Positions 19,335 through 54,337 of a stretch of DNA of 64,000 bases are shown here, one piece after another (positions within the stretch are counted from its first letter, which is position 1; each line of letters opens with the position of its first letter). The position numbers and the translations under genes were made by a program. The DNA is from Aradus depressus (lineage: Eukaryota; Arthropoda; Insecta; Hemiptera; Aradidae). The notes under the pieces were generated by a model. The model ran no database searches. It saw nothing but the letters and a program-made list of their open reading frames with translations, and was not told the DNA's origin. The stretch lies in contig OY759216.1 in the NCBI GenBank assembly GCA_963662175.1, forward strand, positions 51,725,087 through 51,789,086, in the 5' to 3' direction.

Positions 19335-22300
19335 GTAAGTCCAGTGTAAAATTTTAATTTCATTTATTAAATTGTCATTACTAATAATTAATTATGACAA
19401 ATTATTATTAATTTTTTATAAAGTAATGAGAATATCAAGGGCCCAGTTACCGAAAGTTCAAGTAAAACTAACTCAAATTCTAACGTTGAAAATGTCCACT
19501 AAATTGCTAAAGAAATATCTTAACCAATTAGGACTTATTTTGGCAGCTGACTCGTCTAGTTAACTGTAATAGAAGTCGAAAAGCTTAAAAGTCACTAATT
19601 AATGTAAAAAACTGAAAACATTTAACCAATGAATGAACACTTAATAATTACATATATCTATACATTTTTGAAAGTTAGATATAATAATTATATCTATATA
19701 CCTTTTTGAAAGTGTTCATTCATAGATGTTCTCAGTTTTTGACTTGAATTAATTACTTTTAAGCTTTTCGACTTCTATAACAGTTAACTAGACGAGTCAG
19801 CTGCCAAAATAAGCCTTAATTGGTTAAGATATTTCTGTAGCAATTCGTAGCAGTTCGGTAACGGCACTTGATATTCTCATTACTTTATTAAAAATTATTA
19901 ATAATAATACTATTAATTATTAATAGTATTAGTTAGTCCTGTGTCCGTGTTTTTAAGTGTAAAAATACTTACTAAATTTAAAAACCTAACACCAATCTAT
20001 GAGCAGGTAAGCCTCGTCTTGTCTCTTCCCTAAATCCACGGCTTCTATTTTTAGGTTAGGTTAGGTTTTATGACTAATGCCCGGGCTTTAACTACGGGGT
20101 CATATCGCCTACTACCAGAGCACTCTTTTGTCACTCTCTTCTATTTTTATGTTTCTCTTCTGTCTGCAATCATTTCTTCTGAAGTTTTGACCATCCTTCA
20201 GACGGCTTCATTCTGTAAAGTAATTCATATAGATGAATACATCATAGAATAATTTTTTTTTTGAAATTATCAAGAACGAAATAATTACACATATTAAGTG
20301 TACGGAGCCGAGGTTTACGGGTTCGAATCCCGTCTGGGAGTGAGTTTTATTTTGTAGATAGAACTCCCTCCGTAGGCCATGGATGTCGTAAATAACTAGA
20401 TAACACAGTGACATGGGTAATCAATCGTACATGAGGCCAAAAAATAATAAGTGTAATAAGAATCCTATCTTAGAGTTTTGGCTGCATTTGAATCACGATT
20501 GTAAATTTGAAGCATAACTTAATACAGGTGAGAGGTATTTATATCATGTGATCATACTGTATTAACTTCAGTCATTTGAAAGAAGATAAACAAAAATAAA
20601 CTAAAATCAAAGGCAAAAACAAACTAAGATCCAAGTAAAAAAAAAAAGCTACTACCATTAATATGAAAAGATAAAGAATACAAAAAGAAATAATAAAATA
20701 AATACAAAAATATGTGATCTGTACAAAAGTGATTGGTAATAGGGTTGGGTTAGGTTTTATGACTCATGCTCGGGCTTTAACTACGAAGTCATATCTCCTA
20801 CTACCAGAGCGCTCTGGTGGACATGAGCCCGACTCTACTGTGGGAGTCCTAAATTTTGCCTACCCTAAATTTTTATTCATCTAGGGCAGGGGTCTTTAAC
20901 GAGTAACTGACATCGTACAGGCTCGGGACCATCGCTTAACGTCCCATCCGAAGGACGGCGTGCTTAAGTTTATTTTACCTCCCAGATAAAATAAACTAAG
21001 GGCCTCGGTCGGGCTACGAACTCACGACCTTGAGCTCAGAAGTCAAGCACGCATACCACTGAGCTACCGGCGCCCCCTACGTGATTGGTAATAGAAAGTC
21101 CCATTACGACCACTTCACATACATTTAATTTTATCTTTCATTTTCATCCTTTTTAATAAAAAAAAAATATATCAATAATATAAAGATATTTTAAAATTCG
21201 TTTCTATGCGTTGCAATTTAAACAATGCTTTGTAATGTTTCCTACGGAAATTTATTGTACATTCTTTGGGGAGGTATGACTTTGTTTGCATTGGTCCTAT
21301 CTAGATTCTGAGGGCATTTTGGAAGTCGGAAAATTAAAAAGGAACATTTTAGGTAGGAAGACATTTTTCATTAGGACTAACCGTTTTTTTCTAGTAAATC
21401 AAGCAAACATTAAAAAAATGTGGATATAATGAATTTATCGACACAAATTTCAGTATGAGGATTTAGAAGCCGCTATGTCAACTATTGAATATTAGCGCAA
21501 ACGGTCGCTTGGTTTTGAAATGGGACCAAAAAATTAATTAATTCATTGGTTCGGGGAATAGGTACATCGCTGGTAATTCACCGTCGATTTTTTTTTTTTT
21601 TTTTTTCCAAAATACAGAAAGCAATCGAGTGGAAGGCCATCTCAATCTAAATGAGCCGAGCCAAGAGCCTAGCGACTAGGAGAGGCGAGATTAATGTAGC
21701 GGAGTGGTGTGTGTTTCCGGCGCCTGGCCTGAGTATCACGTAGCAAGCCCGGAAGTCAGGACATCCGCGACAAATGACTTTCACACCCACCCACTAACAG
21801 TTCTCAACCCTTAATTACACCCTGATGTATTACTTCCACAACACTTTCTAAGCTCCTCTGTCTGGTGTGCGTGCATTGGTTGGGCGCCAAGGACCCAACG
21901 TATGTTGAAAAGGCAATGACATAGTACACTAATAAAAGAGGTACCTATGTGTACACGTTGTTGTACAAATGAATAGTAGGTTTTTATGATTGGTAGAGAC
22001 CATATGTGACGTAGAATATTCTATTCTATTCTTCAAAAGAAGAGGTATAAATAGAAATTCATTGTTTGAAGTAGTCGTAACGTTTCTTCTAACCGCTCCG
22101 TCTTTGTACGGCTGTTTGCAAGGATCTGCGATCAAAAATAAAGTTAAAAATGAAAAAAGTATGTTTTTTAAAATATTGTCTATTTCACCAAATATATATA
22201 GTATATGAGAGTACTTTTGATATTGCTACAATCTTCAGCCACGACTAAACAAATGCTGTATTTGTTAAGTCATGGCTGAAGATGGTATCAATGCCATATA

Positions 22301-25300
22301 TTATATACTATACTAGCTGTCCCGGCCACGCGTTGCTGTGACTCTTTTAACTTTGAATTACAGCTAAAACAGTTAACTTCAAACTTTTTAATACTGTCAA
22401 ATTAAAATTAACTAATAATGATAAAAACGTCTTAGCCGATCTTAGAACCTATGGGAATGAGAATGGAACGTTACACCAAAATTTAAAAGTGATTGGTGAA
22501 GAGTTTCGGAGAATTAAAATTAAGCACAAACCAACATAGAATTGTTAGATTTACATTTTATTAAATACTGAATTAATACAATATAATAATCCAATTTTAT
22601 AAAGGAGGTAGAAAGCGTTATTTTCAAATATTTTAATCCATTTAAGTGCCAGTTGGTGTACAATATTTTTAGTTAGCCCGTCTTTTGCACCAAATAGATT
22701 TGATGGTTTCCCCACACATGAAATTTAAGTATGTGTTAGAGGCGTCCGTGGCATCTGGGTTGGATAACATGTCGTCAAAATAATTGCGTCTTTGTCATAC
22801 ATACAACCGTTGTCGGCTTTGATGACGATTTGACAGTTGTCATTTCTTAATTGTGGTAACTCTCTTTTAAACAATTGAATAAGTTGATTATGATTTTCCA
22901 AAAAATCTTCCAACAATAACACAATTGCTCTCTCTTCTGCTTGTTCGATGAAATTATACTGGCACCGAGTTGTCACGCGTTCTTCACAACTACCCATAAA
23001 ATAGATTTGGAGAAACTTCGGATCATTATCAGCCCGTCATCCAGTGGCATGTCTAGCCCGGTCAACCGTAGCCGTGTATCAATAAAACGGACCGCGTGTG
23101 TTTTTAAGCGTTTTAGAATTTTAAATAATGTTAGAATTATTAACATTAGAATTATTAAAAATAATAATACACAGCTCAATTATAAAACGGATATACGAAG
23201 GATTAAAAATACAATGGTTATGTCGTAAACATAAACACATATGATGTGGAATAGATCGTAGCGTCAAGAAATCTAAACACGGTGCCATCTACTGGTTGTT
23301 TACACAACCTAGATAGCAAAAGATGTTGAAGTGTTGTCGTTAAATTAAATAACACTGCCATCTGTTAGAAGCCGAGAAATCGAGATGAAAACTATTCTAT
23401 CTTTTAAGTTGGACCAAATTACACACAGTAAGCCAAATTTCATTAAAATTGGTTAAATAGTTCCGGAGTTTATCCCGGACAAACATTGTGACACGAGATT
23501 TATATATATAAGATTATAGTCACTCACAAAACAGAAATGGACTGCATTTACTATTTCACACTCTACAAAACCCAATCAAACACTTCCACCGCCTTCTTAA
23601 TAGAAATGGTCGGAAGACTTGCTTAACGAGTCCTGAACTTTAATTCAACTTCAAAAGGATGATCTATCATCCTCAGTTCTCAAGGCACCGCCTCTTTCAG
23701 GTATGAAAAGTTAATTCAATTGCAAAGAAATTAGATAAAAAAATTACTTATGCGTGAAAAAAAAAAAAAAAAAACAATAAAATGATGCAACTAAGAGAGA
23801 AAATAAAAGAATTTTAGTACACTTATATATTTTAATATACCTTATATGAATTTGGTTTGGTGACGTGAAGTGTGCCGATCGCTTTTTCAGCCACTTCTAA
23901 TACTAATAATAGGAACTTGATACATAGATACCCCTCATAATGAACAAAGCATTATATCAAACTTTCAGTCACAGCAGTCGAGCGGTTCACCGTCTGTATT
24001 TTTTTCAGACGTTTACTTAATTTATGCGAAATCGGTTGGATCTATGGAAAAATCTTCTGTGAGAAAAAATGTTCATTATGGAATTTCTAACTAATAAGTT
24101 TTGTCAAATTTGAAGTAGTATCAATTAGCACAATTGTAGCATCTCAAAAATTGCTTTCCCTAACTATATTAATTAACAGCTGTTAAATAAAACCTACGAT
24201 AGCTTTAAAATGTATGTAAATAACCAAAGAGTTAGAAAATAAAAAATAATATAAAACAATAGTTTAAAAATATATATATTTTAATTATAACACTAAAAAT
24301 TAGAAAATAAACTAATTTTTTACTGTATATATTTTTTGATTATTAAGGAAGAATGATCTCTGATATAGTTGGCAGTTGAGGGGCGTGGCTAGCGTTTATC
24401 GACAGAAAACAACCCATTTATTGCTGAAACATCAATAACATTAGACATAGATTTCAAGATTGAATTTGGAGTGTTAAGCCCAACCCTAAGATTGAACGAA
24501 CATAACAAAATGAAACAATAATTAGTATTTATTTAATAATTGTTGGTTAATATTGGGATATATATAATTAAGGTGACAATTTTATCTATTAATGAAATGT
24601 CCGAATACATTTTTTGCGTTCTGTGTTGATATAGTGGAAATACTAATAAATACAATAAAATGATAGATAAAACACTTTGAACACTTATATTGTCTAATTC
24701 CACAAACATATACTTAAATGTGTACCGGTTTCGGCTCACGCCATCGTCAGCCCAATGTTCAATAATAATTATTATATATTAATAAACCGGTACACATTTA
24801 AGTATTAATGAAGTGTTTATGACATTCTTTATGCACATAGGTTTGTTGTAATCGGAGAATCCATTCAAAACAACGTCAGTTTCTCCAGGTATTAGAGGTG
24901 TATTACTGCTCTCAATCCACTGGAGCCGTTTTTGGTCTATTGGGTATTTCAATTAGCCTTAAAATCGTGACGTCTCTAAGGACGGAGCTCAAGAACGACA
25001 GTATACCAAAGACACACGTGTCAAAGGCATGTATTCACTCAGCATACTGATATCGATTACATAGTTCCTCTTGAGTATTTGCATACCTACCACCTGTGTT
25101 TATCTGATAACGTTACGGAACAGACTGACCTGGTCGCCCATATCGAAATAGTCTTTTACAGAGAGGCCGCCTTTTCATGATTAGATATGGTTTTCTATAA
25201 GTGGCCGGACGAGGAGTGAGTAATTTAAACACAATACCGAGAGGAATCTGGCACAGCCACTCCGTATCAGTCTATTTCTCCAAGAGTTACCGGCCACCGA

Positions 25301-27462
25301 TGTACACAACCCATGTAAATCCGGGGACATATAATGCAAACAAATCCAACTTTCATGAAAAATGTATCAGCACAATTCATGTACGTTCATACATCGAAAT
25401 CTTCAAAGCGGTTTAAGAAAGAAAACGTCAGAACTATGGCTGTTTTGTTGAGTACCTACTCTCATTAAGTTGCATATAGTCAGACTAAGGTGCTCATGGT
25501 TAGACATAAACTAACCGACTACCGAAGTTATGAGCAGGAACGACTTATGTCATCACGGGCAAACTGGCCAACTGTAAGACGACAGTATATAATTAATGTT
25601 GTCATAACTACCAGTGGAGACCTACGTCACTAGCTGCTGGTCGAGTACTGTGGGCGCGAGCTTTGCAGTGGCGTGTTGTACTACAGTACAACATTAACAG
25701 TGGCTCGAAGATGATGTCTTCAAATCGAAAGTACTCGACCAGCAGCCAGTGACGACGGTATTTAATTTATTTAATGGCGGAACTAACCCCTTAGATTGTA
25801 TATAATTAAATCCAAACACAATTTGGAGTCTCAAAATGTTTACTATATGTGATCCGAACGCTCATTCGAGTTTTAACAAACATTGCACATCAATACGATG
25901 CAAAAATTGTTCTTATAATAAGGTAGGTTCGTTCGGGAAGTTTGTTAACCAAAAAAATCGGCTCAACAGAAGGGAAGGTGAAATGGAGTCTAAAAAAAGA
26001 AGACGTACATTCGCGCTACGCTCTCGTCATCTGCGGTCAGAAATATGTAGGGTGCCTTTTCTAATTTGAGTCATAAAACATCGTATATTTTCCTTAGAAG
26101 CAGAGAATACAGATATAAATCAGAATAGTTGCACTTTACCTCTAAACATCGGTTAATAAGTAAATGCAAAGTTAAGCATTATCCATCTTTTAATCTAGCC
26201 AATATGACTTGGCCAACAACATAGTACTTAACACATTGAAATGCGCCTACTATACGCAGCTTTTGCAAGAAAGAACTTTCTTGTTTATTTACCTAAGTCA
26301 TTCTTATTGAGTTTTTACCGGAACTTCATGTTTTCCGACCTCTTGAATTGAAAAAAAAACAAAAAAAAACTGAAGATTCTCTGTTTCGTCTGTCCTTATG
26401 TCACGATAACTCTCGATAAAAATTAATATAATAGAACATTTTTTATGTACCAATTACAGGAAACTTGAAAGAACCCATCATAATATTAAGAAAGATCTCC
26501 CAGGGTTCATTGTATATTAAGATGTAATATTAAGATCTTCTGTATATTATTTTATAAAAATGTTGTATCGTTATTCCATTGTTTATTACAGCTGGCTGCA
26601 CTTCTGCTAGTGACGGTTGCTGCAGTTTCATCGGAACCTGAACCCAGCTACCATCGACCGTAAGAAAAATGTTTTTTTTTTCTTAAATATTTATTTACTA
26701 CCTTCGGTCGCCAACTCCGCTTTGCTGTAAGTACTGTCCCAACCCCCTGCACAGCTGTTTAATGGTCCAGTGATTACTCTATTCAGCTTCCTAATCCCTG
26801 TTCAAAGAATTGCCTTTGTATGTGGTTGTAAAAGAAGACATTCAAATGAGCGATGTTCCATTTTCAATCGCCTGCCATTTCGAACAATGAAAGATATCAG
26901 AAAAATATATATTTGGACAAAAGTGTCTTATTTTTGAACGATCTTTAAGATATAGGAACAGCTTGACGCCCCCTTCCTATTAGATATTTTGAAGTTAGTA
27001 TGTTGGGAAGCAAGAATGCGGGCGAATGTCTTAGTTAATATTACAAAGTACCACCAATTTTTCAAATAATTTAACTCAATAAAAATTTTAGATAGCGATT
27101 CCCAATAGTTTGAAATTGATTGAAATTATAAAAAAAATAAGTTTTAAATTAATTTATGAGGTCCCAAAGTCTCAGAACTACAATTGGAGGTGTAGAGATA
27201 AGAACAATAACGTAGTCGAACTGATTGCAGGGTGGTGTCACGTGTAGTGCACGTGCACGGTGAGCCGGTGAGCCACTACGTGCACAGTCGTCACCTACAC
27301 TACCACCACGAGCCCACCTATCATCATCACCATCTTGAGGATGTCGTCCTTGACCACCATCACCTGGACCACCGTCATATTGACTATCATCATGGACATC
27401 ATCATCACCATCCTCATCATCTTCACCATCATGATGACCACTACCTCCATCATCATCATTAA
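19317..27462 (+). CDS. Secreted histidine-rich protein 1 (three exons, 105 aa)
   Basis: Assembled from splice sites: exons 19317-19334, 26592-26659 and 27231-27462. Introns are GTAAGT...TTACAG (7257 bases, phase 0) and GTAAGA...TTGCAG (571 bases, phase 2), and the joined frame has no stop until TAA at 27460. The product starts MASSVILAALLLVTVAAVSS, a clear signal peptide, then EPEPSYHRP and a tail with about 35 His in 105 residues (HHHHHPHHLHHHDDHYLHHHH-like), ending on four His. Splitting a signal peptide by a phase-0 intron after a few codons is characteristic of insect cuticular protein genes. No chitin-binding Rebers-Riddiford motif is present, so a cuticular role is only a possibility; metal binding by the His tail is another. 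TATA and initiator lie upstream and AATAAA at 27530. Gene 2 at 40121 has the same plan. The gene structure is inferred, not transcript-verified. Confidence 0.75.
19401..19907. repeat. ~500-bp imperfect hairpin in intron 1
   Basis: The left half (AAGTAATGAGAATATCAAGG, GGCAGCTGACTCGTCTAGTT, AGAAGTCGAAAAGCTTAAAAG) returns inverted on the right (AACTAGACGAGTCAGCTGCC, TGATATTCTCATTACTTTAT). Arms are about 200-240 bases with scattered mismatches around an AT-rich loop near 19660-19710. It may be a foldback transposon; no coding sequence. Confidence 0.85.
20052..20139 (-). repeat. SINE family A fragment with telomere-like tail
   Basis: TTAGGTTAGGTTAGGTTTTA then GACTAATGCCCGGGCTTTAA and CATATCGCCTACTACCAGAG. 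Only the 3' end of the SINE is present (minus orientation). The tail holds three TTAGG-like units. Confidence 0.75.
20296..20445 (+). repeat. SINE family B fragment
   Basis: Holds the B box GGTTCGAATCCCGTCTGGGAG, GAGTTTTATTTTGTAGATAG, GGCCATGGATGTCGTAAATA and the end GGCCAAAAAATA. The A-box part is diverged or replaced. Confidence 0.75.
20743..21080 (-). repeat. SINE family A, full-length, 14-bp target duplication
   Basis: Full copy from TTAGGTTTTATGACTCATGC to CTGAGCTACCGGCGCCCCC, so head and tail are both present. It is bounded by a perfect 14-bp direct repeat GTGATTGGTAATAG (20729-20742 and 21081-21094), proof of insertion by target-primed reverse transcription. A good reference copy for the family (about 335 bp). 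Confidence 0.95.
21095..22190. other. Unassigned intron 1 sequence
   Basis: Includes an 18-base T run near 21590-21606 and a GC-richer patch at about 21620-21800; no coding function recognised. Confidence 0.35.
22198..22312. repeat. Small inverted repeat with CTGAAGA core
   Basis: TAGTATATGAGAGTACTTTTGA...CAATCTTCAGCCACGACT is inverted as AGTCATGGCTGAAGATGGTATCAATG...ATACTA. It directly abuts the Helitron end at 22313. The CTGAAGA block is like the ribozyme-like cores elsewhere but no GAAA is preserved. Confidence 0.65.
22313..23513 (-). mobile_element. Helitron relic (1.2 kb)
   Basis: On the minus strand the element starts TCTTATATATATAAATCTCG and ends GGCCGGGACAGCTAGT, i.e. 5'-TC and 3'-CTAG, inserted between A and T without target duplication, all as in Helitrons. 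A minus frame at 22725-22997 contains FLENHNQLIQLFKREL then NDNCQIVIKAD, matching the stretch between the helicase-like N region and the Rep domain in insect Helitron proteins. The Rep HUH motif and helicase are absent, so the copy is a deletion derivative. Confidence 0.75.
22725..22997 (-). pseudogene. Helitron Rep/helicase protein fragment
   Basis: About 90 codons: the core LLLEDFLENHNQLIQLFKR and CQIVIKADNG is the conserved pre-Rep block of Helitron transposases. It stops early and is joined to unrelated residues on both sides, so no activity is expected. Confidence 0.65.
24698..24812 (-). repeat. Inverted repeat containing a hammerhead-like core
   Basis: ATACTTAAATGTGTACCGGTTT (about 24710-24731) returns inverted as AAACCGGTACACATTTAAGTAT (24784-24805). 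Between them on the minus strand lies CTGACGA, a short stem and GAAA. Confidence 0.8.
24729..24750 (-). ncRNA. Hammerhead-ribozyme-like core
   Basis: Minus strand: CTGACGA, then TGGC-GTGA-GCC (a 3-4 bp stem with tetraloop), then GAAAC. CUGANGA and GAAA are the invariant halves of the hammerhead core. The sequence after GAAA pairs over ~19 bases with the upstream arm, which ends in GGTTT, so a GUU triplet sits where the NUH cleavage triplet of a stem III-closed ribozyme would be. A convincing stem I was not found, so activity is unproven. Confidence 0.45.
25626..25755. repeat. Inverted repeat, ~26-bp arms
   Basis: CGTCACTAGCTGCTGGTCGAG TACT pairs with AGTACTCGACCAGCAGCCAGTGACG. A GAAGATGATGTC...TCGAAAGTACTCGACC block beside the right arm resembles the ribozyme-like cores at other loci but has an extra base in CTGANGA. 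Confidence 0.7.
26592..26659 (+). CDS. Histidine-rich gene 1, exon 2
   Basis: Acceptor TTATTACAG and donor GTAAGA frame 68 bases coding LAALLLVTVAAVSSEPEPSY then HR and two bases of a Pro codon. It supplies the hydrophobic core and cleavage region of the signal peptide. Confidence 0.75.
27231..27462 (+). CDS. Histidine-rich gene 1, exon 3
   Basis: Acceptor CTGATTGCAG. The first base completes the Pro codon, then VVSRVVHVHGEPVSHYVHS and a His-rich tail; stop TAA at 27460-27462. His codons alternate CAT and CAC, so this is a selected or drifted coding region rather than a pure CAT trinucleotide expansion. Confidence 0.8.
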
Positions 27463-27567: not shown

Positions 27568-28600
27568 AATAATAATAATAATTGTATTTCCGTTAAAACA
27601 ATATGTGGTAATAGGATACGTTATAAGAATGTATGAGTCGTCATCAGATCGTAGAATTGGGCAGATCGTAGAATTGGGCAGATCATGATCTGCCACCATT
27701 TCATGAAATAACCAACTAATATCCGCCATATCGTTCAATGCAAATCATTTGACGATTTGGCCAGCCATAGTTGGGCATATCGATTCCATTTGAAAAGGCT
27801 GGGATTTATCCGAAAGAAGACAAATTTGTCGTTCCTTTTAGTGAAACAGAACAGGTTCTCCTCACGAAACCAATGAAGTTTTGTTTTGACACAGCCATTT
27901 CCGCGACCAGTGGCGTAAAATGCAACTATTTCACGATATGTCCAGCCATATCAGGATGTGGCGAAGCGTTTAGTTTGGAATATAGACAAACGTATTGCTC
28001 TCGTCGATCCACCCGACTTTTCATTGAGCACATCATAATATGGCCGCTTTACAATAGGGCAGATCATGAAATGCCCAAGCACATTATGATCTGCCCAATT
28101 CTGCAATCGGACGACCATATATACATTAAGTTTGCTTATAAACTAGATTGATAATTATTTGATTCTGACACACAATACAATTAAAAAAATAAAGTGAAAT
28201 GAATAAAAAAATAATTAGTAAATACAATAAATATGAGTTCATAGTAATAATACTAGTACCTAGATACATTTATAATAAGTAGATACATTTTTTAAATTTC
28301 ATAATGATAATGAAAATAACAATTTTGTATAACTCTTCCGGAAGTGTGTTCATCATGACGATATTCCGGGGCGTTCATAGGTCTTTTTATCAAAGGTCCC
28401 AATGGGCGAATTATAGAAAAGAGAAATAAAACAATGTAACAATAACAAATAAAAAAAATAAATAAAAAATATATACCTACCTATTGAACAAATATAATTT
28501 AATAAAATACAAATGAATAAATAAAAAATATATAGGTAAATGAATAAATAAAAAAATATAAATAAATTTAGATACAATAATAATAAGAATAGAAAATAAA
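27568..28600 (-). mobile_element. LINE 3' tail ((TTA)n type), split by a MITE
   Basis: Begins with (AAT)n then TTGTATTTCCGTTAAAACAA, and resumes after the MITE with CATTAAGTTTGCTTATAAAC, ATTTGATTCTGACACACAA and the GACGATATTCCGGGGCG block. The same order is seen at 42536, 53056 and 58988. On the minus strand it is the 3' UTR of a 5'-truncated LINE ending in (TTA)n. It starts only ~30 bases after gene 1's polyadenylation signal. Confidence 0.7.
27637..28115. mobile_element. MITE nested in LINE tail (~480 bp)
   Basis: Terminal inverted repeats: GTCGTCATCAGATCGTAGAATT and GGGCAGATCAT on the left against GTCGTCCGATTGCAGAATT and GGGCAGATCAT reversed from the right. Short sub-repeats of GGGCAGATCATGA-type sequence lie inside both ends. 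The LINE's sequence is interrupted exactly here. A 126-codon frame inside has no recognised domain. Confidence 0.7.
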
Positions 28601-36380: not shown

Positions 36381-36383
36381 AAT

Positions 36384-36386
<3 letters not shown>

Positions 36387-36414
<28 letters not shown>
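36387..36414. repeat. (TA)n microsatellite
   Basis: About 14 TA units, followed ~40 bases later by a second short (TA)n and a duplicated TGAATCTTGCCAAT. Confidence 0.85.
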
Positions 36415-40147: not shown

Positions 40148-43100
40148 GTGAGTAGTCACCTCATTGTGTTATAGTGTTTGTGTGAACTGTTTTGCGACTC
40201 AGTGTTTCATGTGATCAACATACTTAGTGCAACAACATGGATATTTTTGTTTTAATATTTTTCACTGAATTCTCTATACATTTTTGTGCATTTCTTTTGA
40301 GGAAGGAGGGTGCTAATGTGAAAGTGATGTATCTACAAAAAACAAGATAAATAGGCATCTCAGATAGTATATTTCAAAAATAGGAAACGTCAGGAAAATG
40401 TGAAGAACGGATTACTTTTTTTTGGACGGCAGATTTTATATTATTATTATCCCAATTAATGTCGCAATGACTTACTAGAAAAACAAGTTCCTTCAGTAAT
40501 TATGTAATATCTCAGTTTGGATAAAATATCACAACTTTGTTAATTATGGAACATCCAAGTTTTCAATGTACTGTATTATTGGAGATTTACTGAGCGTTTT
40601 GCTATAGTTCGTAAATCAATTAGGAAAAAAATGTATTAGCCGTTTTTCATTATCAACCAAATTATCGTTGATTCTTAATAAAAATAATTTGGTAAAGCTA
40701 AAGTGGGGGGCTAACTTGACGCACCCGCCAAAGCCATCTAGATCTCTGCCCGCCTCTTCTCTTATCACGTGCAGTTGGATGTTGGAAGGGATAGGTTGCA
40801 ATTTACCTTACACTTTCCACTATCACCCATGCATTACATTTTATGTCAATTCCTTTTGTTTTGTTTTTTCATTTTTACTTTTACACTAATAACAAACCCC
40901 AAGAAGGAACGTAAAACTGACTCAAGAAGTTAAATAAGAATAAAGAATAGTTTTGATAATTATATCAAAAACATACATATTCCTTATTTTTACAAAAGTA
41001 GTATACAAATATTACAAATCATAAGACAATTCTATTATAATTTTTAAAAATGTCAATAAATTCCATATATTCTAATTCAATGTTTCTCTTTTTAAATATT
41101 TTACAGATCATGACAATAGCAGTGTGGATTTGCATGATTTCAAGTACACAAGGAGGTGACGATGTCGTACAGTAAGTCAAGACATTTTTTAAATTTTATT
41201 ATGTACGTAAACAAAATTATTATTATCATGGAATGAATGTATTGTCATAAAATTTTATAAGTAAATTCAAAAGCTCAAAATTGAGGTAACTATTGATTTT
41301 CAGTCAAATAGGATTAAGAAGGGTTCAAAGTGACTGGAAATTCAATTTTATTTAAATGTAACTCGAGCTGGGAAAGTAGATTTCTGGTGAATCATGGACA
41401 ACATTTTCCCTTTTATTTTAATTGATAATCAACCCAAAATGAATGAATAATTATTATATACATTATTTTAATTTATATATTATATATTTTTTTTATTTTT
41501 ATGTAAAGGCACACAACCAACTGCGGCTTATAACATCTCTTTCGGCACTTTTTTTTTTTTTCACGGGATCACAATAATTTTTTTTGATTTACTGAACATC
41601 CTCCTGCATCGTTCTTACTAATTGTGAATTTTAATATTCTAATGTGAGATCCTGCATTAATTCTCATTAGCAGAAAGAATTAACACTAATTGAAAGAAAA
41701 GACGGTACAAACACACAGAAAGATGTTTATTGGAGAACTATAAATAAGAATAAAGGAGAAAAACAAAAAAAACAATGTTTTTGTACAAATATTAGGTGAG
41801 GTTGAAGCTGCCTCAGGTACATCGTCTTATAACCGAGTTAGATTAGCATTGGAACAATGTAGAGATGTTATGTCCTCTAGAAAGTGTAACGCACCTTACT
41901 CACTTTTCTAGTAGAAAAGCTCTGAAAGAGATTTGAAATGAAAACAGTATTTCAACATTATATCATGATAAAGGCTCACCTAAAACTTGTTTTCTCCACA
42001 AATGTTGCCATACTAAATGTGAAACTTATGGACCCACCGATTTGATTGGTTTCTTTCATGAGTTGGTTTTGTACTAATGTTTATTCAAAGATTCAAGGCC
42101 CGTAATCAGCTGAACTTAGCTAAATGACCTGCTTTTGGCCAACTAACTTCGACTTTTATAACTTCTAAATTTTTTTATGTAATACTTAACGATATTCCTG
42201 AGGATAGTTATGTAATGACATTAAAAAAAGTCATAGGTCAATCACTGGCAATGTACTTCCCCAGAGCGAATTCATCAATTAACTTTTTGGTCCCTCTCGT
42301 TTTACGCTAATATTCAACAGTTGACTTACATTGTGTCTTCCTCCAAATAACCGATTCCCTTTGATTAGACGTTAGACCACCTCTCAAATTCATTTCATTC
42401 TGGCCTTACTGGCTATAAGAAAGTAACTCGTTGGCTTCAGCAGTTTTTAGTTTTTTGTTTCATTGTACAGTGTAATTGTGAGAGTGACATTCTTATCCCC
42501 AGTAACGTCACTATGAAAGGAGGAGGGGGGATTATGGTAATAATAATAATAATAATAAATTTATTTCCGTTAGACCAATACAAGGTAATAGGATACTTCA
42601 AAAGAATTTATACATTAAGATATAGATTTATAACTACTTGAGTCTGACACACCTATGATTAGTAATAATAACAAAACTATTAAAAAAAAGTAAATGAAAT
42701 TAATAAAAATTGAACATATAAATACTTAAAAATATATGAGTGTATAAAGAAATTAATACAAGATACGTTTATAATGAGTAGACACATTTTTCAATTTAAT
42801 AAAAATTAAGATAACTATTTTTTCAAAAAAACTCTTCGGAAATGTCTTTAACCAACGATGTTTCAGGACGATCTTACGTCCCATCATCAGGTCCCGATGT
42901 GCGAGATATAGAGAAAAAAAACAATGTAACTATAACAATATATGAAGAAAAAAAATATATATAAAAGTCTAAATAAATAAAAAATTATAAATGAATAAAT
43001 AAAACAATAACGTACACTCAACTGACCTTTAAGGTGTGGAGGAACTGTGTCTAAAAAAGAAAAATTAAAGCTTTCTATCAAATAATGTTTTTTGGATATG

Positions 43101-45537
43101 AAACACGATTTTTTTTTATTGTGGTTATTTTATTCTTTTTGTACAGTGAGAATAAAATTCCGTTTCCATGTAAAGGGTTTCCTCTAACATAACATTTTTA
43201 GTTGAAATTTAAATTTTTTTTATTTTATCTATTGACTTCAAGAAGTGTGGAAGGGCATTGAATAAATTAATTCCTTTATGAGTTTTACTTTTTTCAAAAA
43301 GAAAAGAGCAATGTTTAGTTATTCGAAAGTTTTCTTTCTTCCTGCTATCGTAATCGTGACAGTAGACAGAATCAAGAGTGAAATTGTGAGAAGCCGATGA
43401 GATTTCGACCGCAGTCGATTGCTCTAAGGCTCGGAGAGTCCTGTTATGTACAAATTATATATATATATATATATATTTTAATAAAAACTACCAGTATATT
43501 TGATCTATTATCTACGGAAATCGTTCTTTGAGGCGCTATAACTTTGTTCGTATTGCTCCTTTCCGAAATCTGAGGGAATATTGAAATATAATTTTATAGG
43601 GAACATTTTTGGAAAAAAACAATTTTTCCTGTAAATCAAGGAAACGTCTAAATATGGGTTTCAAAACGACATTTTAGGATGGTTTTCGGCATGAAACTCG
43701 CAAACTGGGCGCCCTTTGAAAAATCTTGCTTCATATAACAGGTGCATTTTAGTTTTCTATACACAACCTTTATTTGAAGAAATTTTTAAAGTGGTCACCA
43801 TTGTCTGCTGTTTTCGATCAAAATAAATTTCATGTTCATTGCTACAATCGTTTCTCGAGTTCACCAATTTCCAATTACACCACACCAAAACAATCATCGC
43901 GAAAATGGTCAAAACTTGTTCAGAAGACCTTGAGACGTGAAAATCCTTCGAAAACTCAATCTTGGATTTTCCCACGATTATAGTAGTACTTGCTTATATT
44001 AAAAGTATAAAAAAATATAACAAAGTAAAAAAAAAATTAAAAATATAATTTATTGAAAACAGAATAGTGAAGTTGTTATGTCAAGAATGGTGCAGGAGAA
44101 TTTTAAAATAAACAAAAGTGGATGAAAAAAGTATTGGCAATTCTAGTGTTTTTTTTTTTTTTTTTGTGGGTGTAATTTAAATAATAATTCAGTTTAATCA
44201 ACAAAGATTAAGTCATTACAACGGGTAGAAACAAAAAAATACTGTTTTTACTAGAATTATTTCCATCTAATGCGATTAGAAAAATGAAATGAAAAATTAA
44301 AACAATATATGAGAACAAGAGCTTTCTAATAAAAACAAGAACACGGAAGATTTTTTTTTTTTTAGTCTTGGTATTTGTATTTTTTCCTCTCAAAACTATT
44401 TTTTTTCTATGCACTACTTTCTATTTATTTCTAAGCCTTAATGATCTAAAAAAAATATAGTTTATTTTCGGCAAATGTTGGCTGATTTTCCGAACCTACT
44501 CGTTCAACACATTAGCCACGGAGAGAAGGAGTCTCAATTCGACAAAATGCGTGACACTTTTTAACACCATTACACACTAATTACATGATTCTCGTATCTT
44601 TTGTTTGGATATTATCTAATTTTTAACGGAATCTTTTTTCTCTGATTAAAAAGGAACTTTATTTACCAAAATGATGAAGAAAAAGTGTTACGTGGGTTCG
44701 TTGAATGCCCAAATACATAATTCTGTGAATTTCGTCGTTTGTTATACGTTCAAAATTATTTTCACTCGCTTTTCAGAACTTCGAAGTCAAAGAAGACATA
44801 AGGGTTCATGAAATTAAGTGAAATCATAAAGATAACGTTTCTATATTCTCGTCGTTTACATGCGAGAAGGTTTTATATTTTATAGTGTTATCTTTTTTCT
44901 CCTCTGTTTCTGAAATAAAAACAAAGTCATTAAACATTTCTAGCTTAGGAAGGTGGATATCGGGATTGTTCTGGCAATATCTGTCTAACAATTTTTCTAT
45001 TCAAAAGCGCAATGAAAAAAGGCAAAATGTTAAAATAGTGTAATAAACCCGCATAATACATGCTAGTTGTACAAATTACTTAGCAAACAATCAATGTTAT
45101 ATTGTTATATTATTGTAAAATACTCTCTGCACTTAAAAACAAGTTATAACCGAATAAGCAAGGTAAATGACTTCTTCAATCCGCCTGCAACGGACTAAGA
45201 GATACAGACACGTGTTTTTTCTCAATCAAGATCCTGAGTTAACATCAATCCAGTAGGATATACAATTATTTATTTCATTGGGGCTGTCGCCGGAAGGTAC
45301 TATGTTACAGGCGTCTTTTCTAGTACCTAGTCATCTAATTACAATCAATTAACGACGGATTGACCAACGATGTAATAGGAAGGATGAGAGATGAGGCTTA
45401 TGGTCGATAGAAACAAACTTGTAGAATTTCTGCCAAGCTTTCGGCACTAGTGTGCCTTCTTCAAAGCCTTTATTGACATATGTTGATGTATGCTAGATTT
45501 TAGTAATCTTTTACTCAAATCTAGTATACATCAACTC

Positions 45538-45586
<49 letters not shown>

Positions 45587-47811
45587 GCATATATATATAC
45601 AGGCATATATATATACAGGCAATACAGGCCCTGAAGAAGGCAGACTCAGTGTCAAAAGCTTGGCAGAAATTCTACAAGTTTGTTTTTATCTACCACAAGC
45701 CTCATCTCTTCTCATTCCTATTAAATTACAATGGCACAACATAGCTCTTAAACAATTACCCATAATTACCTTTTAAGTATTTTTCATGTACAAGTTCACG
45801 AACCGGACACCTTGTTACTTTGGTCATGCCTTGTACCTAATTGGAAACACGGAAAACAAAAGTAAAAAATCATAATTAGTGTAGATACAAATAATAATAA
45901 TTGCATACAAAAGACAATTTTATGACAGTACTCATTGTTAAACTGAAGATAACACTTTCCATTGGTCGTTTTTAGGGTTCCATAGTTTAAAAACCGAAAC
46001 TAGAACTTTCTAGCCAGCTTTATGTACAAAATTTCCTGTCACGTGCACACAAACATCCTTACAAAAATGGTTTAGATATTTTCAGGACCTTGAAATGTGA
46101 AATTTCCTTGAAAACTCGATCTTTGATTTTTTGCACGATTTCAATACTTCCGAATACAAAAGGTTTAAGAAAGTAAAAATAATAATTTACAAATAATGAG
46201 CCAACTCTAGTCATGATCGCCTAACTCTACAGACCAACTCAGTCTACACAAAGACGCATGGACATTGTAGCACGAGTTCCGACTCCATAGTTATCATACA
46301 AACAAGAAAGGCTAGGAATAATCGACCTACAACACAAATATACACTTGAGGGGAAATTGAAAAAAAGTTGTTTTGTGTAAAACCGATTATTTCAAGAAAA
46401 CAGAGAAAATTTCATTTCTTCGTCCATGGCAATGGCTGAGACACAATGAAGTGAGATCCATTGTAGAACAGTTCCCAGTGAGACGGCGGTCAATTGAAAT
46501 CTTATGTAAGGTAATGATTTTCAGCGACAGGCGCCTCACTTGCTTCAGTTCCTCCATGTCTACCAACATTGTAAGAGCCACTACCTACCAACATTATCTG
46601 GGAAATTATTGAAAACATATCGTTATACAAATAATCTTGTGTGTGTAGTTGAATAATGTCAAATAACATTTATTGTTAAAGCATAATCTTAAGAAAGAAT
46701 TGAGGGTTCCCTCACAATCTTTACAATATAATATGTGTAATGAAGTTATAGTTTTAATAACCATGGTTTTTCATTTTCTTCGTATTAGTGAATCGTTTTA
46801 AATGTAATTTTTTAACGTGCAAACCATCAACCATAACAATCATCACAAATGTTTATTTCCTCCGAGAGGGAAAAATAAGGAACATATTTGCTGCTCCCTT
46901 ATAACCGCATAAGCAAGAAAATGCATTTTTAGAAACATTTAGTTGCTTTCCACCTAAGTGAGTCAAAATTCTTGCTCTGCTACTTTAGGAGGATGTCGAT
47001 GCTTTGGACCGTTTTACATAAAATTAGTCAGGATTTTAAACTGTCCACGATAAGCTGTTCTATCCAGTGTAATATTTATCTTGAGTTAGTGAATCTTGGT
47101 TTATTCTAAATGTAATTTATCTAAATAGCGCCGGTAGCTCAGTGGTATGCGTGTTTGTCTTCTGAGCTCAAGAACGTGGTTTCGAAACCCGACCGAGGCC
47201 CTTAGTTTATTTTATCTGGGAGGTAAAATAAACGTAAGCACGCCGTCCTTCGGATGGGACGTTAAGCGATGGTCCCGATGGTACTCGTTAAAGACCCCTG
47301 CCCTAGGTGAATAAAAATTTAGGGTAAGAAAAATTTAGGACTCCCACAGTAGAGTCGGTCTTATGTCCACCAGAGTGACGAAAGAGCGCTCTGGTAGTAG
47401 GCGATATGACCTCATAGTTAAAGCCCGGGCATGAGTCATAAAACCTAACCTAACCTCTAAATAGCGTTATTTGAATAATTTTTTTTCTTAACCTTTTTAA
47501 ATATTGCATTGGTCGATGATTATGACAACAAACACAAGCCATTAACGCCTGTAGGAGGCTCAGAACAGAATAAATTGTTAATTATAGTTTAAAACTACAA
47601 TATCTTTTTAAACTGTTTCAGTCGGAAAGTGATTATCCACGTGCCTTACAAGATACACACAATTCATCACCACATCATCAAGAAGATCCCCGTCTACCAC
47701 TTCTATGATCACCACGACCATCATCATCACCACCTCCCACCACCACACGACTTCAGCCACTTTAGCAGCCATGGTGGTGACTTTAGCAGCCATGGTGGTG
47801 ACTGGGACTGA
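40121..47811 (+). CDS. Secreted histidine-rich protein 2 (three coding exons, 93 aa)
   Basis: Exons 40121-40147, 41107-41171 and 47622-47811; introns GTGAGT...TTACAG (959 bases, phase 0) and GTAAGT...TTTCAG (6450 bases, phase 2). The joined frame is open to TGA at 47809. Product: MATLATIATIMTIAVWICM and ISSTQG (signal peptide), then GDDVVHRKVIIHVPYKIHTI, HHHIIKKIPVYHFYDHHDH and a tail with two FSSHGGD repeats ending DWD; 18 of 93 residues are His. Intron positions and phases match gene 1, and the K/R-V-V/I-x-H-V...H-Y/T...HHH segments are alike, so the two are probably old duplicates. Role unknown: secreted, possibly cuticular or metal-binding. A further GTAAGG donor 55 bases after the stop suggests a 3' UTR intron. 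Inferred from splice signals only. Confidence 0.75.
41107..41171 (+). CDS. Histidine-rich gene 2, exon 2
   Basis: Acceptor ATTTTACAG, donor GTAAGT, 65 bases coding IMTIAVWICMISSTQGGDDV V and two bases of a His codon: the rest of the signal peptide and the acidic start of the mature protein. Confidence 0.75.
41180..42535. other. Unassigned intron 2 sequence
   Basis: No gene or recognised repeat; a T-rich run lies near 41549-41562. Confidence 0.35.
42861..42890 (-). ncRNA. Hammerhead-ribozyme-like core in LINE 3' UTR
   Basis: Minus strand: CTGATGA, TGGGACG-TAAGAT-CGTCCT (6-bp stem with one G-U), GAAAC. In the related copies the core is weaker: at 53287-53315 CTGAGGA and GAAA remain but the stem is eroded, and near 59465-59493 CTGATAA has lost the essential G. 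Confidence 0.4.
43209..43445 (-). pseudogene. LINE ORF2 C terminus (HDYDSR motif) with stop
   Basis: 79 codons: NRTLRALEQSTAVEISSAS, then YCHDYDSRKKENFRITKHC, SFLFEKSKTHKGINLFNAL and PHFLKSIDKIKKI before TAA. The H-x-Y-x-T/S-R, F-E-K and G-I-x-L-F/Y-N-x-L-P blocks are characteristic of jockey/CR1-group ORF2 ends. The frame is undamaged over its length but the RT itself is absent. Confidence 0.7.
43529..44600. other. Dispersed repeat remnants, no gene
   Basis: GAGGCGCTATAACTTTG and GTAAATCAAGGAAACGTCTAAA match the sequence interrupted by the hAT MITE at 38682. Another segment (CTTGAGACGTGAAAATCCTTCGAAAACTC, about 43930) recurs near 46092. No coding sequence supported. Confidence 0.45.
45373..45721. 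repeat. Inverted repeat with long (TA)n centre
   Basis: Left ATGAGGCTTATGG...ACAAACTTGTAGAATTTCTGCC returns inverted as GGCAGAAATTCTACAAGTTTGT...CACAAGCCTCATCTC. Inside, the two sides carry GAAGAAGGCACACTAGTGCCGAAAGC and CTGAAGAAGGCAGACTCAGTGTCAAAAGC, two degraded versions of the hammerhead-like core. A (TA)n tract (about 45541-45583) and three ACAGGCATATATATAT units lie in the loop. Confidence 0.8.
45780..47119. other. Unassigned intron 2 sequence
   Basis: Contains one dispersed segment shared with ~43930 but no gene recognised. Confidence 0.35.
47129..47455 (+). repeat. SINE family A, full-length, 9-bp target duplication
   Basis: Complete from CGCCGGTAGCTCAGTGGTAT to the tail CATAAAACCTAACCTAACC. 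Perfect direct repeat TCTAAATAG at 47120-47128 and 47456-47464. The tail is two CCTAA units. Confidence 0.95.
47622..47811 (+). CDS. Histidine-rich gene 2, exon 3
   Basis: Acceptor CTGTTTCAG. The first base completes a His codon; then RKVIIHVPYKIHTIHHH..., a PPP stretch and a perfect 21-base tandem duplication (TTTAGCAGCCATGGTGGTGAC twice, 47760-47801) coding FSSHGGD twice. Stop TGA 47809-47811. Confidence 0.8.
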
Positions 47812-49240: not shown

Positions 49241-49558
49241 AAAAAGAAAAATAAAAAAATAAAAATTATAAATAATATTATTATATAATAATATAATGTA
49301 TAATATTATTATACAGAAATTAATATAAAAAAAATAAAAATTATAAATAATATTTTTCAGTCACTACAATCCATTATACTACGCCACATTGTCAATGCGA
49401 CATTTTTCGTTTCCAATCTCTCATTGCATAATGACCTTAATATCTCATCTGTACCTGCAGTTATCAGGTCACAATATCAACATTTTCACGACAAACTCCA
49501 TCATCACGCCAATCCACTTAACTTATTCAGCAATTATCCACAAACACTCTCCCTATAA

Positions 49559-49703
49559 ATTTGACCAGAACCGAGTTTCAACGCAACCGCATCATCATCA
49601 GTGGTTCATCCCACCCACACAGCACAGTGTCCAGTTGTCCTTTAACCGCTGTGCTGTCTGGGTGGCAGTTGCTGTTGCGTTGAAAACCAGTTCTGGTCAA
49701 AAT
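49559..49703. repeat. Inverted repeat with hammerhead-like core
   Basis: TTTGACCAGAACCGAGTTTCAACGCAA pairs with TTGCGTTGAAAACCAGTTCTGGTCAAA. The left side carries a CTGATGA...GAAA core on the minus strand. Confidence 0.75.
49576..49601 (-). ncRNA. Hammerhead-ribozyme-like core
   Basis: Minus strand: CTGATGA, TGATGC-GGTT-GCGTT (4-bp stem with a G-U), GAAAC. The adjoining sequence after GAAA is inverted 100 bases away, as at the other loci. Confidence 0.35.
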
Positions 49704-50238
49704 AAAACAGTGGGAAGACAGTGTATTTTATTTCTATGATAAATCTCGTCCCACAACATCTTACTATCACATATAAACTTATATTACGTTTTCCTGCATC
49801 GCATTACTTAGTATATAATATATATATAAAATTTTTTGTTTCAGGTTGCGTCGCACAATCGAATGGACGCTGTTCAATGAACTTTACCACAGCCACATAA
49901 TGCTAATTTTTTTATTTTAACTGGTTACCTATTTTTGCCAAAAAAGTAATGTTAATTCGTGTCCTATCTCTTTAGTGTTCAAAGATATACAAAATGAATA
50001 CTGATTTGATTCTCCTAGTCATGTATATGTGCAGATACGTACGTTAAGTAACAATATGTCAGTCTTGTTATGAAAAGTCACTAAGCCTAATTATTTGATG
50101 AACTTTCCCTCCTAAGTAGTAGTTTTACGACAAATCCGCTTCTCAAGGATATAAAATTAATATTGTATTTATTATTATTAAAAATTCTGGGGGTATTGAG
50201 GGTCAGTCAATGAAGAAAACACTATTCAAATGCCAACG

Positions 50239-50265
50239 TTTCGATATATTTCATATCATCATCAG
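50239..50265 (-). ncRNA. Hammerhead-ribozyme-like core
   Basis: Minus strand: CTGATGA, TGATAT-GAAAT-ATATC (5-bp stem), GAAACGTTGGC. No inverted arm was found nearby. Confidence 0.35.
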
Positions 50266-50602
50266 GGCCTAACAAACATGGGGGTATCAAGATTAGAAAA
50301 ATATAATGGGTGATCGATTATTTTGAATTCTACAGTCGCTAGCAAACATCTACATTGTATTTATTACAATAACTGCTTTTTAAGAAATTCATAAAATCGA
50401 AATGTCTTAAACGTGGAAGTAGTGACTTTTCGTAGCAATTCGACAATATGTATTGTTTCGAAAATAAAAATAATATTTGTAAAAATGAATAAATATTTAA
50501 AAAGTTGAAGATCAATTATTTGCGATTTTTTTTTTGTATTGTGTACAAATAAACATATTTTTTTTAAATTTATTTTAAATGTTTAAAACATCAATCCCCC
50601 CC

Positions 50603-51208: not shown

Positions 51209-51778
51209 GGTAGAACATGATGGCATCTGGTTGAGGTTTCTACCGACATTGCTATATTAATGTTTTTTCAGAAAATATGAAGAATCGGTGCCACAAGGAC
51301 AACGTATATTCTATATTTCTTCTTCGGTTACTTTGGTTTAAACCACAAGAACTAATTTTCATCTTTTACTTATGGTTGTTCATCATTATATCTGGTTGAA
51401 GCCCCTCTACTGACATTCCAGCATTAATGTGTTTTTATTATATATATAAAAGGCTACGCCCAACTTAAACGTAAATTTCTGCTGCAGGTGTGTGAATCGG
51501 GGCGTAGCCTCAAATTCGGAGATCAAATGAGCATCTAAAAAAAAGAAGGGTCCACTAAATGAAGAGAAAAAATGTGTAGAGAGAGCGCGGAAACATCTGT
51601 GTAAGTCGGGTTGTAGCCACAAATTCAATGATCAAAGAACCATCAGAAGAGCTAAAACACAAGGCTTGGTCCAGCAAATAAAGAGATCCAAGATTTAGAG
51701 GGAGAAGAACTACCGATACCCGGTTCTGCTCCCCTCCCTCGCCTCTTCCTTCTGGCCGATCAGGCTCATCAATATATA

Positions 51779-52147
51779 CAGGATAAAGGAATATGCACAC
51801 ACTAAGGAATATAAACTCCACACACTACTTGTTAATATTTTCACTATATTGGTCAAAATTACACGACTATAGTTTCGCCTGTTACGGCATCAAGTGAACT
51901 AAACAGAGATTACTACTGAACTAACACAAGGCAGGACAAACAATGTCATACTTTCTTGTCACATGTCTAATTTATGACATTGTTTTCCTGCCTTGTGTTA
52001 GTTCAGTAGTAATCTCTGATTAGTTCACTTGATGATGCCGTAACAGGCGAAACTATAGTCGTGTAATTTTGACCAATATAGTGAAAATATTGACAAGTAG
52101 TGTGTGGAGTTTATATTCCTTTAGTGTGTGTATATTCCTTTATCCTG
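51779..52147. repeat. ~370-bp hairpin with ~170-bp arms
   Basis: CAGGATAAAGGAATATGCAC ... CTAACACAAGGCAGGACAAA is nearly perfectly inverted up to GAATATAAACTCC... / ...TTCCTTTATCCTG. The loop is only ~20 bases around 51951-51972. Each arm holds (C/T)TTGATGATGCCGTAACAGGC then GAAACTATAGTC, a variant of the hammerhead-like core. Confidence 0.9.
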
Positions 52148-52285
52148 TTCATTATGAATTTTCACAAAGTAGACCTGGAATCAGTTCAATACTCATCAAT
52201 ATACGTCGCATATACAAACACACCCTCTCCAACAGGCTTAGCTACTCCGGGGCCGAGAGACGCACCCCCTCCGGTCTCTCTATGA

Positions 52286-53022: not shown

Positions 53023-53055
53023 TTGAAGAGATGTAAACTGCTTATATCGCATTAA

Positions 53056-53570
53056 TAATAATATTTATTTCCATTAAAACATAACAAGGTAAATGTCTTC
53101 AACAATGTAGCTTATAAATTAGATACATAGTTATTAAATCTTAGAGTAGAACACATTGTGATTAACAATAACAATATAAAATAAATTAGTATGAAAACAA
53201 TAAAAAATAATAAATACAGTTTCATTGTATTTAAAATTAGGATAAATATTTGTATGATTCTTCTTGAAGTACTTTTCTCGACGATATTTCAGGACGTTCT
53301 TTCGTTCTTCCTCAGGTCACAATAGTGAATGAAATATGGAAAATAAAGAGAAAAAAAATGTAATAAAACATAAATCAATAAACCAATAAAAATAAAATAA
53401 ATTAGTGAATACCTTATACAAAATATTGAACAAAACTTAACTCGGATAGACCTTGAAGTCTTATTATTTGTGGAGTAAAAATAAAAATGAAAGCTAATTA
53501 TGAAATAATACTTGTATATATGATCCACGACTTTTATATCTTGGTTATTTTATTCTTTTTGAAGGACGAG
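53056..53570 (-). mobile_element. LINE 3' tail ((TTA)n family)
   Basis: AATAATAATATTTATTTCCATTAAAAC, then the ACGATATTTCAGGACGTTC block and a TGGTTATTTTATTCTTTTTG block also found at 43124. Minus orientation, no ORF retained. Confidence 0.7.
53287..53315 (-). ncRNA. Eroded hammerhead-like core in LINE tail
   Basis: Minus strand CTGAGGA...GAAAT; the intervening stem has decayed relative to 42861-42890. Confidence 0.25.
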
Positions 53571-54099: not shown

Positions 54100-54337
54100 G
54101 TTTAATAAAAGAACATAGTTGTTGTCGATCCACAAGTTTTTTGGGAGAACCAGCTTTCATTCATATTGGACCATCTCCAGTGCTAACCGAATTAACAAAA
54201 CCAGAGAGTTGTAACTGTCAGACAGCTTACAGCTCTCTGTTTTTATTAAATCAGTAGGCACTGAAGATGGTTCAATATGGCTGAACGCTGGTTCTCCCAA
54301 ATAAGTTTGTGGGTGGACAACTGTGTTTTTTTATTAA
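54100..54337. repeat. Inverted repeat, ~50-bp ends
   Basis: TTTAATAAAAGAACATAGTT...CCACAAGTTTTTTGGGAGAACCAGC is inverted as GCTGGTTCTCCCAAATAAGTTTGTGG...CTGTGTTTTTTTATTAA, with ACAGAGAGCTGTAAG / CAGAGAGTTGTAAC inner repeats. CTGAAGATGGTTCAATATGGCTGAACGC at 54251 is a degraded hammerhead-like core. Confidence 0.75.

Follow-up and report, generated by a model that had tools for sequence, protein, structure and literature searches.

What carries the hammerhead-like motifs that recur in one part of the genome of the hemipteran Aradus depressus, and are those motifs more than chance hairpins? The window, by which we mean the whole stretch of 64,000 nucleotides that was analysed (contig OY759216.1, positions 51,725,087 to 51,789,086 of the forward strand; G+C 34%), had been read from its letters alone in an initial annotation, which listed six intact cores (CTGANGA, a short hairpin and GAAA) and several decayed ones, placed them in unrelated inverted repeats, and attributed them to several families of ribozyme-bearing mobile elements. 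The excess of a full hammerhead descriptor over shuffled sequence confirmed that the motifs are real. In the families that we call S36 and P52, and probably also in S24, P49, P54, P45 and S50 (Table 1), they are very probably minimal type I hammerheads that lie at the 3' ends, or pseudo-long terminal repeats (pLTRs), of several families of Penelope-like elements (PLEs).

Reading of the sequence showed all six intact stretches to be present exactly as listed, one on the forward strand (core start 36765) and five on the reverse (24750, 42890, 49601, 50265 and 53315). Five of them combine the core and GAAA with a closing hairpin (stem II) of at least 3 bp, whereas at 53315 the hairpin is reduced to 2 bp; across 200 dinucleotide shuffles this combination arose 0.47 ± 0.74 times (maximum 3) against the 5 observed, and with a stem II of at least 4 bp 0.21 ± 0.45 times against 4. 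Bare CTGANGA occurs 37 times on both strands, as compared with 21.5 ± 4.6 (maximum 35) in dinucleotide shuffles. When the full descriptor was applied (core, stem II, stem I of at least 3 bp, and UH after the partner of A15.1, that is, NUH), four strict sites remained (36765, 42890, 49601 and 50265), as against 0.05 expected and never more than 2 per shuffle in 100 shuffles; one core mismatch raised the count to nine, with 1.05 expected (maximum 4); 6470 and 31983, both among the nine, have the look of chance hits. Stem I reaches 3 bp at four of the six intact sites, and the NUH triplet with its A15.1-U16.1 pair is present at the descriptor sites. Adding a self-complementary stem III, with at most one mismatch, leaves six sites (36765, 45464, 45631, 50265, 52029 and 59496) against 0.12 expected (maximum 1 in 60 shuffles), a count that is post hoc because the stem III rule was read off these same data. 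Among the sites that had been called decayed, 45440 and 45628, like 51885 and 52028, proved to be the two arms of a single palindrome, 54251 falls in one arm of a further palindrome, and 25710 lies in a short inverted repeat whose motif recalls the core. Two stretches that a pattern scan picked out in viral contigs, L001 (whose frames look phage) and L002 (with no adjoining hammerhead core), were both taken as chance.

In all five window sites whose stem II reaches 3 bp, every strict site among them, an additional T separates CTGANGA from stem II, and an extra nucleotide holds the same place in 26 of the 29 distinct cores found in 309 kb. Stem II is followed by GAA and, in many copies, by a short self-complementary run that begins with A and ends with U, then by H17 and stem I. 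This stem III, 2-4 bp long and self-complementary in the window copies S36, S24, S50, P45, P52 and A59, reads AGTACT at 36765, ACCGGT at 24750 and ACTATAGT at 52029, and in shorter form ACGT at 50265, AGCT at 45464 and 45631, and ATAT at 59496; it is thus self-complementary over 4-6 nt at two of the four strict sites, 36765 and 50265.

The hairpins differ in sequence and yet pair, as had been proposed: in nine families all of the first three pairs form in stem I (27/27) and in stem II (27/27), whereas swapped halves pair in 91/216 and 146/216 cases, respectively. The permutation values of this comparison were not used because several rows had been picked by pairing. A less biased count took as its start the core, a stem II of at least 4 bp and GAAA in the 309 kb, and judged every core by its first copy. 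In 18 of the 29 cores stem III pairs and H17 is present, and 12 of these have a stem I of at least 3 bp as well; with swapped upstream halves, stem I reached that length in 23 of 706 combinations. The 29 are not independent, many being P49 or P54 variants, and those that failed include P49/P54 variants, family A (see below), a family with GAGG in stem II (stem I 2 bp) and some chance-like cores. The GAGG/CCTC family, which has AGCCGGCT as stem III and sits in a long head-to-head palindrome, occurs at L066:2265 (-) and 2557 (+) and at L018:228 (-). The initial annotation had made its reading depend on consensus sequences with pairable stems I and III and an NUH triplet; copies or majority sequences of S36, S24, P49, P54 and P52 pair and have the triplet, and in S24, P49 and P54 relatives pair where the window copy has lost pairing.

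The element behind the motif is seen in full for S36, a PLE with reverse transcriptase (RT) and GIY-YIG in one frame and with tandem pLTR units. The window retains a solo 3' end of this element that shares 89.7% identity with L079:125-668 (582 aligned positions) and in which positions 36284-36328 match residues 791-805 of the PLE protein at 100% (E 0.001). In L079, which comes from a tandem array, the motif lies at 569 and is followed by an open frame (642-3113, first ATG at 699) whose 805 codons (L079:699-3113) score 58.3 bits for RVT_1 (Pfam cut-off 29.6). Units at C5:16852183, 16855126 and 16858067 are spaced by 2943 and 2941 nt (2.94-kb units), and the hammerhead falls between them: the RT and GIY-YIG frame of one unit precedes it, and 130 nt separate it from the first ATG of the unit that follows. 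The motif recurs in L004, L016, L035, L077 and L079; in L077, the frame end of an S36 copy, PLE2, gives 23.3 bits for GIY-YIG (cut-off 22.6), with the motif about 400 nt beyond. A search of the genome (697.7 Mb in 74 contigs) with the PLE2 end gave 15017 candidate places, a figure that, like the candidate numbers of all families below, is a first look and not a copy number; 146 matches were obtained, mostly 95-99% identical, and 145 were scored, six of them in open frames of at least 800 codons. Neighbours less than 6 kb apart among these 145 places are head-to-head in 20 cases, tandem in 2 and tail-to-tail in none. The named relatives of the protein, among the best 120 of 529, are from moths, butterflies and beetles, and the sole match of its RT among PDB sequences is a maturase RT (E 0.0012). 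Three PLE protein queries against the window returned, besides the S36 copy, nothing better than E 0.29. S22, a decayed S36 relative, forms an inverted pair whose arms (22199-22254 and 22260-22315) are 75% complementary.

P52 shows how such ends are arranged. Its core at 52029 has U3 in place of C3; an A at position 8 together with U3 would form a U-A pair replacing C3-G8. There are 806 candidate places, of which 40 were scored, giving 58 matches 93-100% identical, with copies mostly 97-99% alike. Copies in L007, L009 and L010 extend back into a frame with SNCPAAYVGQTGR or the like, and in the L074 piece the motif follows a frame with a GIY-YIG score of 30.7 bits (cut-off 22.6); the part of the gene seen is its GIY-YIG end. 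The link to Penelope-type genes that the initial annotation had predicted is thus found for both S36 and P52. Alignment of the 30 loci that best match the window copy to L073:6525-7432 revealed two arms in 22, head-to-head in every case. One arm of each of these 22 pairs carries a 'tail' of about 37 nt and the other lacks it: the tailed arm ends at 905-908, the other at 823-878 (864-878 in 18 loci). Among the eight single-arm loci the tail is present in seven. The arms also differ in their inner extent, a few, such as arms in L019, L028 and L031, being too short to include the hammerhead. Direct repeats of at least 8 bp, varying in length, flank 17 of the 22 two-arm loci, as compared with 9 of 462 mismatched flank pairs. 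A two-arm P52 insertion consists, then, of two 3' ends, both 5'-truncated and set head-to-head, and in most cases direct repeats flank it. Where they can be tested (P52, and S36 by frame positions), the 'unrelated inverted repeats' of the initial annotation are head-to-head PLE ends. We found no published count of asymmetric PLE pairs in one open-licence library, to which the literature search was confined.

The remaining families are joined to PLEs less directly. S24 (162 candidate places, 40 scored) has a 4-bp stem I (TGTG/CACA) in five of seven sampled copies, the window copy having one mismatch. It appears to be tied to a GIY-YIG frame solely through a relative: in L077 a frame termed PLE1, seen at its GIY-YIG end (26.7 bits, cut-off 22.6), is followed by an S24-related motif. 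P49 and P54 are probably PLEs by their form. Relatives of P49 (1233 candidate places, 40 scored) have a stem III palindrome at 12 of 18 pattern-caught sites, and an 8-nt stem III with a 4-bp stem I at 11 of the 18; the window copy lacks this palindrome. Relatives of P54 (143 candidate places, 40 scored) are 74-90% identical, and the support for the family consists of four copies with the full descriptor (L055, L065, L066 and L067) and the majority sequence, since one strand comparison that mixed copies of both orientations was not relied on. P45 and S50 are probably to be placed with PLEs as well, by the motif alone. As a separate observation, the P54 palindrome at 54142-54299 matches the Rfam family mir-2513 (RF04108) with 45.9 bits (E 8e-6), below the gathering score of 89, and the mir-2513 consensus likewise contains CUGAAGAUGGU; that family may derive from PLE-type palindromes such as P54.

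A second element stands behind the motif. The sequence TTTGTGGAATTAGACAATAT, or one like it, begins 44-46 nt beyond the core start in S36, S24 and S22, and comparable stretches were seen by eye in P54, P52, P49 and P45. In Poseidon of Anolis carolinensis (PAc), reverse transcription starts in an AC-rich stem-loop, according to the available text of PMC11167929, and we infer by analogy that the downstream element may be its equivalent. Its association with the hammerhead is not invariable, as near matches at 60526-60545 and 60895-60914, which lie 369 nt apart, have no upstream core. PAc also suggests that the extra T might belong to a start codon (CTGANG-ATG), a reading that was rejected: the first ATG of the S36 frame lies 130 nt further on, and frames from the ATG in question end within a few codons in P52 and P49, as judged by eye.

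Several observations weigh against an assignment of the motifs to PLEs, some of them from family A. This dispersed repeat (2037 candidate places, 40 scored) has four copies in the window; its intact copies read CTGATGA-T-GGGACG-TAAGAA-CGTCCC-GAAACATCGTT, with a stem I of 3 bp and a stem III of 1 bp by eye. Start points vary among copies, and four of the nine examined end in four or more successive TTA-type units. Homology continues for some 330 nt past the hammerhead to this TTA-type tail, which is not PLE-like, and no opposite-strand partner lies within 6 kb among 47 matches. Family A was therefore not classed as a PLE, on its tail, its lack of inverted copies and an element end that is not close behind the hammerhead; two of the six intact sites, 42890 and 53315, belong to it. 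Family A may be a long or short interspersed element (LINE- or SINE-like) that took up a PLE-type hammerhead.

Other such points come from domain and motif searches. The Rfam hammerhead models gave no match in the window at the gathering cut-off or at E <= 10, presumably because they expect a longer stem III; an Rfam search of the genome matched none of 14 controls and so carries no information. Two of the four strict sites, 42890 and 49601, have no self-complementary stem III. No PLE domain was found by Pfam in the window from 20 to 60 kb, GIY-YIG stays below its cut-off of 22.6 in the whole L079 frame (21.1 bits) and in the L073 piece of P52 (15.4 bits), and the PLE1 motif resembles window S24 at 77% identity over 69 nt, with a different stem I. 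In P52 the family core itself is UUGAUGA, G8 (reference position 753) is A in 7 of 42 arms, and the 30 loci compared, being the best matches to the window copy, are not a random sample. Set against the gene links of S36, P52 and the S24 relative, and against the pairing stems, these points leave the proposal of several families of ribozyme-bearing mobile elements supported, as judged from sequence.

How the paired ends arise is a separate question. The GIY-YIG protein would make a staggered cut, both exposed target strands would prime reverse transcription of sense RNA, for which two internal start sites beyond the hammerhead would serve as alternatives, and the two short cDNAs would join in the middle, which would leave the hammerhead near the outer end of truncated copies; tandem transcripts would be cut to unit length by the hammerhead, which perhaps acts as a dimer held by its self-complementary stem III. 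We tentatively propose, as a possibility that we hold with some reserve, that PLE insertion is normally two-ended, the strands of the staggered cut priming at start sites separated by about 37 nt, which would make every such insertion a head-to-head pair with asymmetric arms. The asymmetry of all 22 P52 pairs would follow if protein and RNA formed an asymmetric dimer and the choice of the two start sites lay with the hammerhead and its downstream stem-loop; ribozyme cleavage could in that case be secondary to the setting of start sites.

An unlikely alternative is that inverted pairs result from self-priming or fold-back of one cDNA instead of two independent primings, which is how the available text of PMC3846280 reads palindromic junctions in rotifer PLEs (an antisense-template route). 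The regular difference between tailed and untailed arms in P52 speaks against it. The arms of one locus share 2 of 45 variants, as compared with 99 of 3544 between loci, in the 12 loci whose two arms are complete across the stretch that was compared, which is no clear excess; this comparison has little power to choose between the two routes because 40 of 54 variants are singletons. Together, the tail asymmetry and flanking repeats of P52, the head-to-head neighbours of S36, and the accessible parts of PMC3846280 and PMC11167929 favour double priming at one staggered cut over fold-back.

It is about equally improbable that the cores no longer self-cleave and survive as relics, with a structural role in the RNA near the start of reverse transcription. 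The U3 of P52, in a family whose copies are mostly so alike, would suit this reading, as would the report, in the portions of PMC11167929 available, that ribozyme mutants inserted normally in vitro and that the ribozyme needed protein to cleave, a result that also weighs against the functional hammerheads assumed above. In S36, P49 and S24 copies, however, the core, NUH and pairing stems are kept, and an extra nucleotide at the same place occurs in the hammerhead of chrysanthemum chlorotic mottle viroid (CChMVd), as the accessible part of PMC3705267 describes.

Far less probable still is an origin of the palindromes as miniature inverted-repeat transposable elements (MITEs) of DNA transposons, whose terminal inverted repeats would contain a hammerhead-like hairpin by accident: short, strongly palindromic insertions with flanking direct repeats in many genomic places have just this appearance, but the outer ends are unequal in every two-arm P52 locus and the inner extent differs too, the direct repeats vary in length, longer P52 relatives continue into a GIY-YIG frame, and S36 is a retroelement with RT and GIY-YIG. 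Chance hairpins in AT-rich repeats, for which one might cite a stem III rule framed after the data had been seen and the two chance-like sites among the nine with one mismatch, can be dismissed almost entirely in view of the excess over shuffles, the stem pairing counts and the linkage to PLE frames.

Table 1. Hammerhead-bearing and associated features of the window, with positions counted from its first letter.
Feature	Position	Strand	Details
S22, decayed S36 relative in inverted pair, core start 22238	22136..22315	-	L079:566-671 matches 22241-22136 at 75%
S24, hammerhead core 24750-24744, downstream element 24706-24687, short inverted arm 24784-24805	24660..24805	-	
P25, short inverted repeat, motif reminiscent of core	25620..25759	.	
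Family A copy, decayed	28172..28530	-	
S36, solo PLE 3' end (last 15 codons of RT-endonuclease frame, 3' untranslated region, hammerhead, end)	36283..36862	+	similarity to L079
S36 hammerhead: stem I TGG/CCA, CTGAGGA, extra T, stem II GGTA/TACC, GAA, stem III AGTACT, H17 = C	36762..36797	+	descriptor
Downstream element TTGGTGAAATTAGACAATAT, 44 nt beyond S36 core start	36809..36828	+	
Family A copy, dispersed repeat with internal hammerhead-like motif (core start 42890) and TTA-type tail	42539..43141	-	
P45, palindrome with divergent hammerhead-like motifs at 45464 (-) and 45631 (+)	45370..45726	.	
P49, inverted pair with hammerhead, core start 49601	49530..49701	-	
S50, hammerhead-like motif: stem I GCC/GGC, stem II 6 bp, stem III ACGT	50232..50268	-	
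12-bp direct repeat CTCATCAATATA, P52 left flank	51765..51776	+	
P52, head-to-head PLE 3' ends: arm 51778-51950 (-) untailed, arm 51949-52191 (+) tailed	51778..52191	.	
12-bp direct repeat CTCATCAATATA, P52 right flank	52192..52203	+	
Family A copy, decayed, core start 53315, stem II not closed	53053..53561	-	
P54, head-to-head palindrome, core start 54261 (+)	54102..54337	.	GAAC here, GAAA intact in relatives
Family A copy, core start 59496; stem I 8 bp with wobbles, stem II 7 bp, G8 -> A	58985..59566	-	

The window holds other repeats besides. A frame of R1 type at 61213-63999 has named relatives, among the best 120 of 369, in Anopheles, Neodiprion, Ceratitis and Trichogramma. Part of a Gypsy-like long terminal repeat element lies at 13013-14465, with an integrase-like frame at 13108-14304 and an identical 80-bp direct repeat at 13013-13092 and 14386-14465; a frame very similar to this integrase frame is present in L076. 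Copies of a unit of about 71 bp, about 92% alike, are arrayed in tandem at 3470-6172, and a dispersed repeat of about 270 bp occurs at 2136-2403 and further places, in both orientations and at roughly 70-96% identity.

That hammerheads occur in PLEs is already known. Of specialist interest here are how many families there are, that a nucleotide is added before stem II, that the P52 core is altered and that P52 insertions are regularly asymmetric; the back-to-back ends bear on how Penelope-type elements insert. Both the insertion mode and the role of the ribozyme can be tested in this genome, because near-identical insertions record both ends and because families with an intact core stand beside one with an altered core. 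Minimal hammerheads of PLEs were reportedly described by Cervera & De la Pena in 2014, and an article of 2017 by Lunse et al. is said to state in its title that PLE hammerheads 'cleave RNA as dimers', which would fit the self-complementary stem III seen here.

Like the minimal PLE hammerheads, described in the accessible text of PMC6155905 as 'lacking the helix III', the motifs of the window have the core, stems I and II and little or no stem III, and lie in the pLTR of elements with RT and GIY-YIG; they differ in the extra nucleotide before stem II and, in P52, in U3. PAc shares with S36 the tandem units and a hammerhead at the junction of pLTR and open reading frame (ORF), and with P52 the internal RT start sites that yield tailed and untailed ends: in vitro, both strands are extended by its protein, which starts at internal sites bounding a 'tail'. 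In PAc, however, the ORF begins at stem II with the cut 26 bp inside, whereas the first ATG of S36 comes 130 nt past the core start, and the part of PMC11167929 at hand reports no start-site difference between strands, whereas the two arms differ in all 22 P52 pairs. Penelope elements of Adineta vaga likewise have inverted pLTRs, mostly head-to-head, with target-site duplications of 8-10 bp and a 31-bp tail that is optional at one of the pLTRs, the origin of the junction being left open; those copies were described singly, as compared with 22 two-arm insertions of one family here, and the word hammerhead is absent from the main text of that paper as available (PMC3846280). Metazoan retrozymes also carry type I hammerheads in small retroelements, minimal PLE-like ones being counted among them, and the canonical ones, according to the accessible part of PMC7229834, sit in tandem repeats of 150-450 bp, none of which was noticed around the window sites, where no dedicated search for them was made. 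The closest likeness for the extra nucleotide is in the (+) hammerhead of CChMVd, a viroid RNA in which A10 lies between A9 and G10.1; as the available text of PMC3705267 has it, the extra A there entails a moderate loss of rate, C or G at that place is very harmful, and U is credited with something 'increased'; the nucleotide in the elements described here is U, not A.

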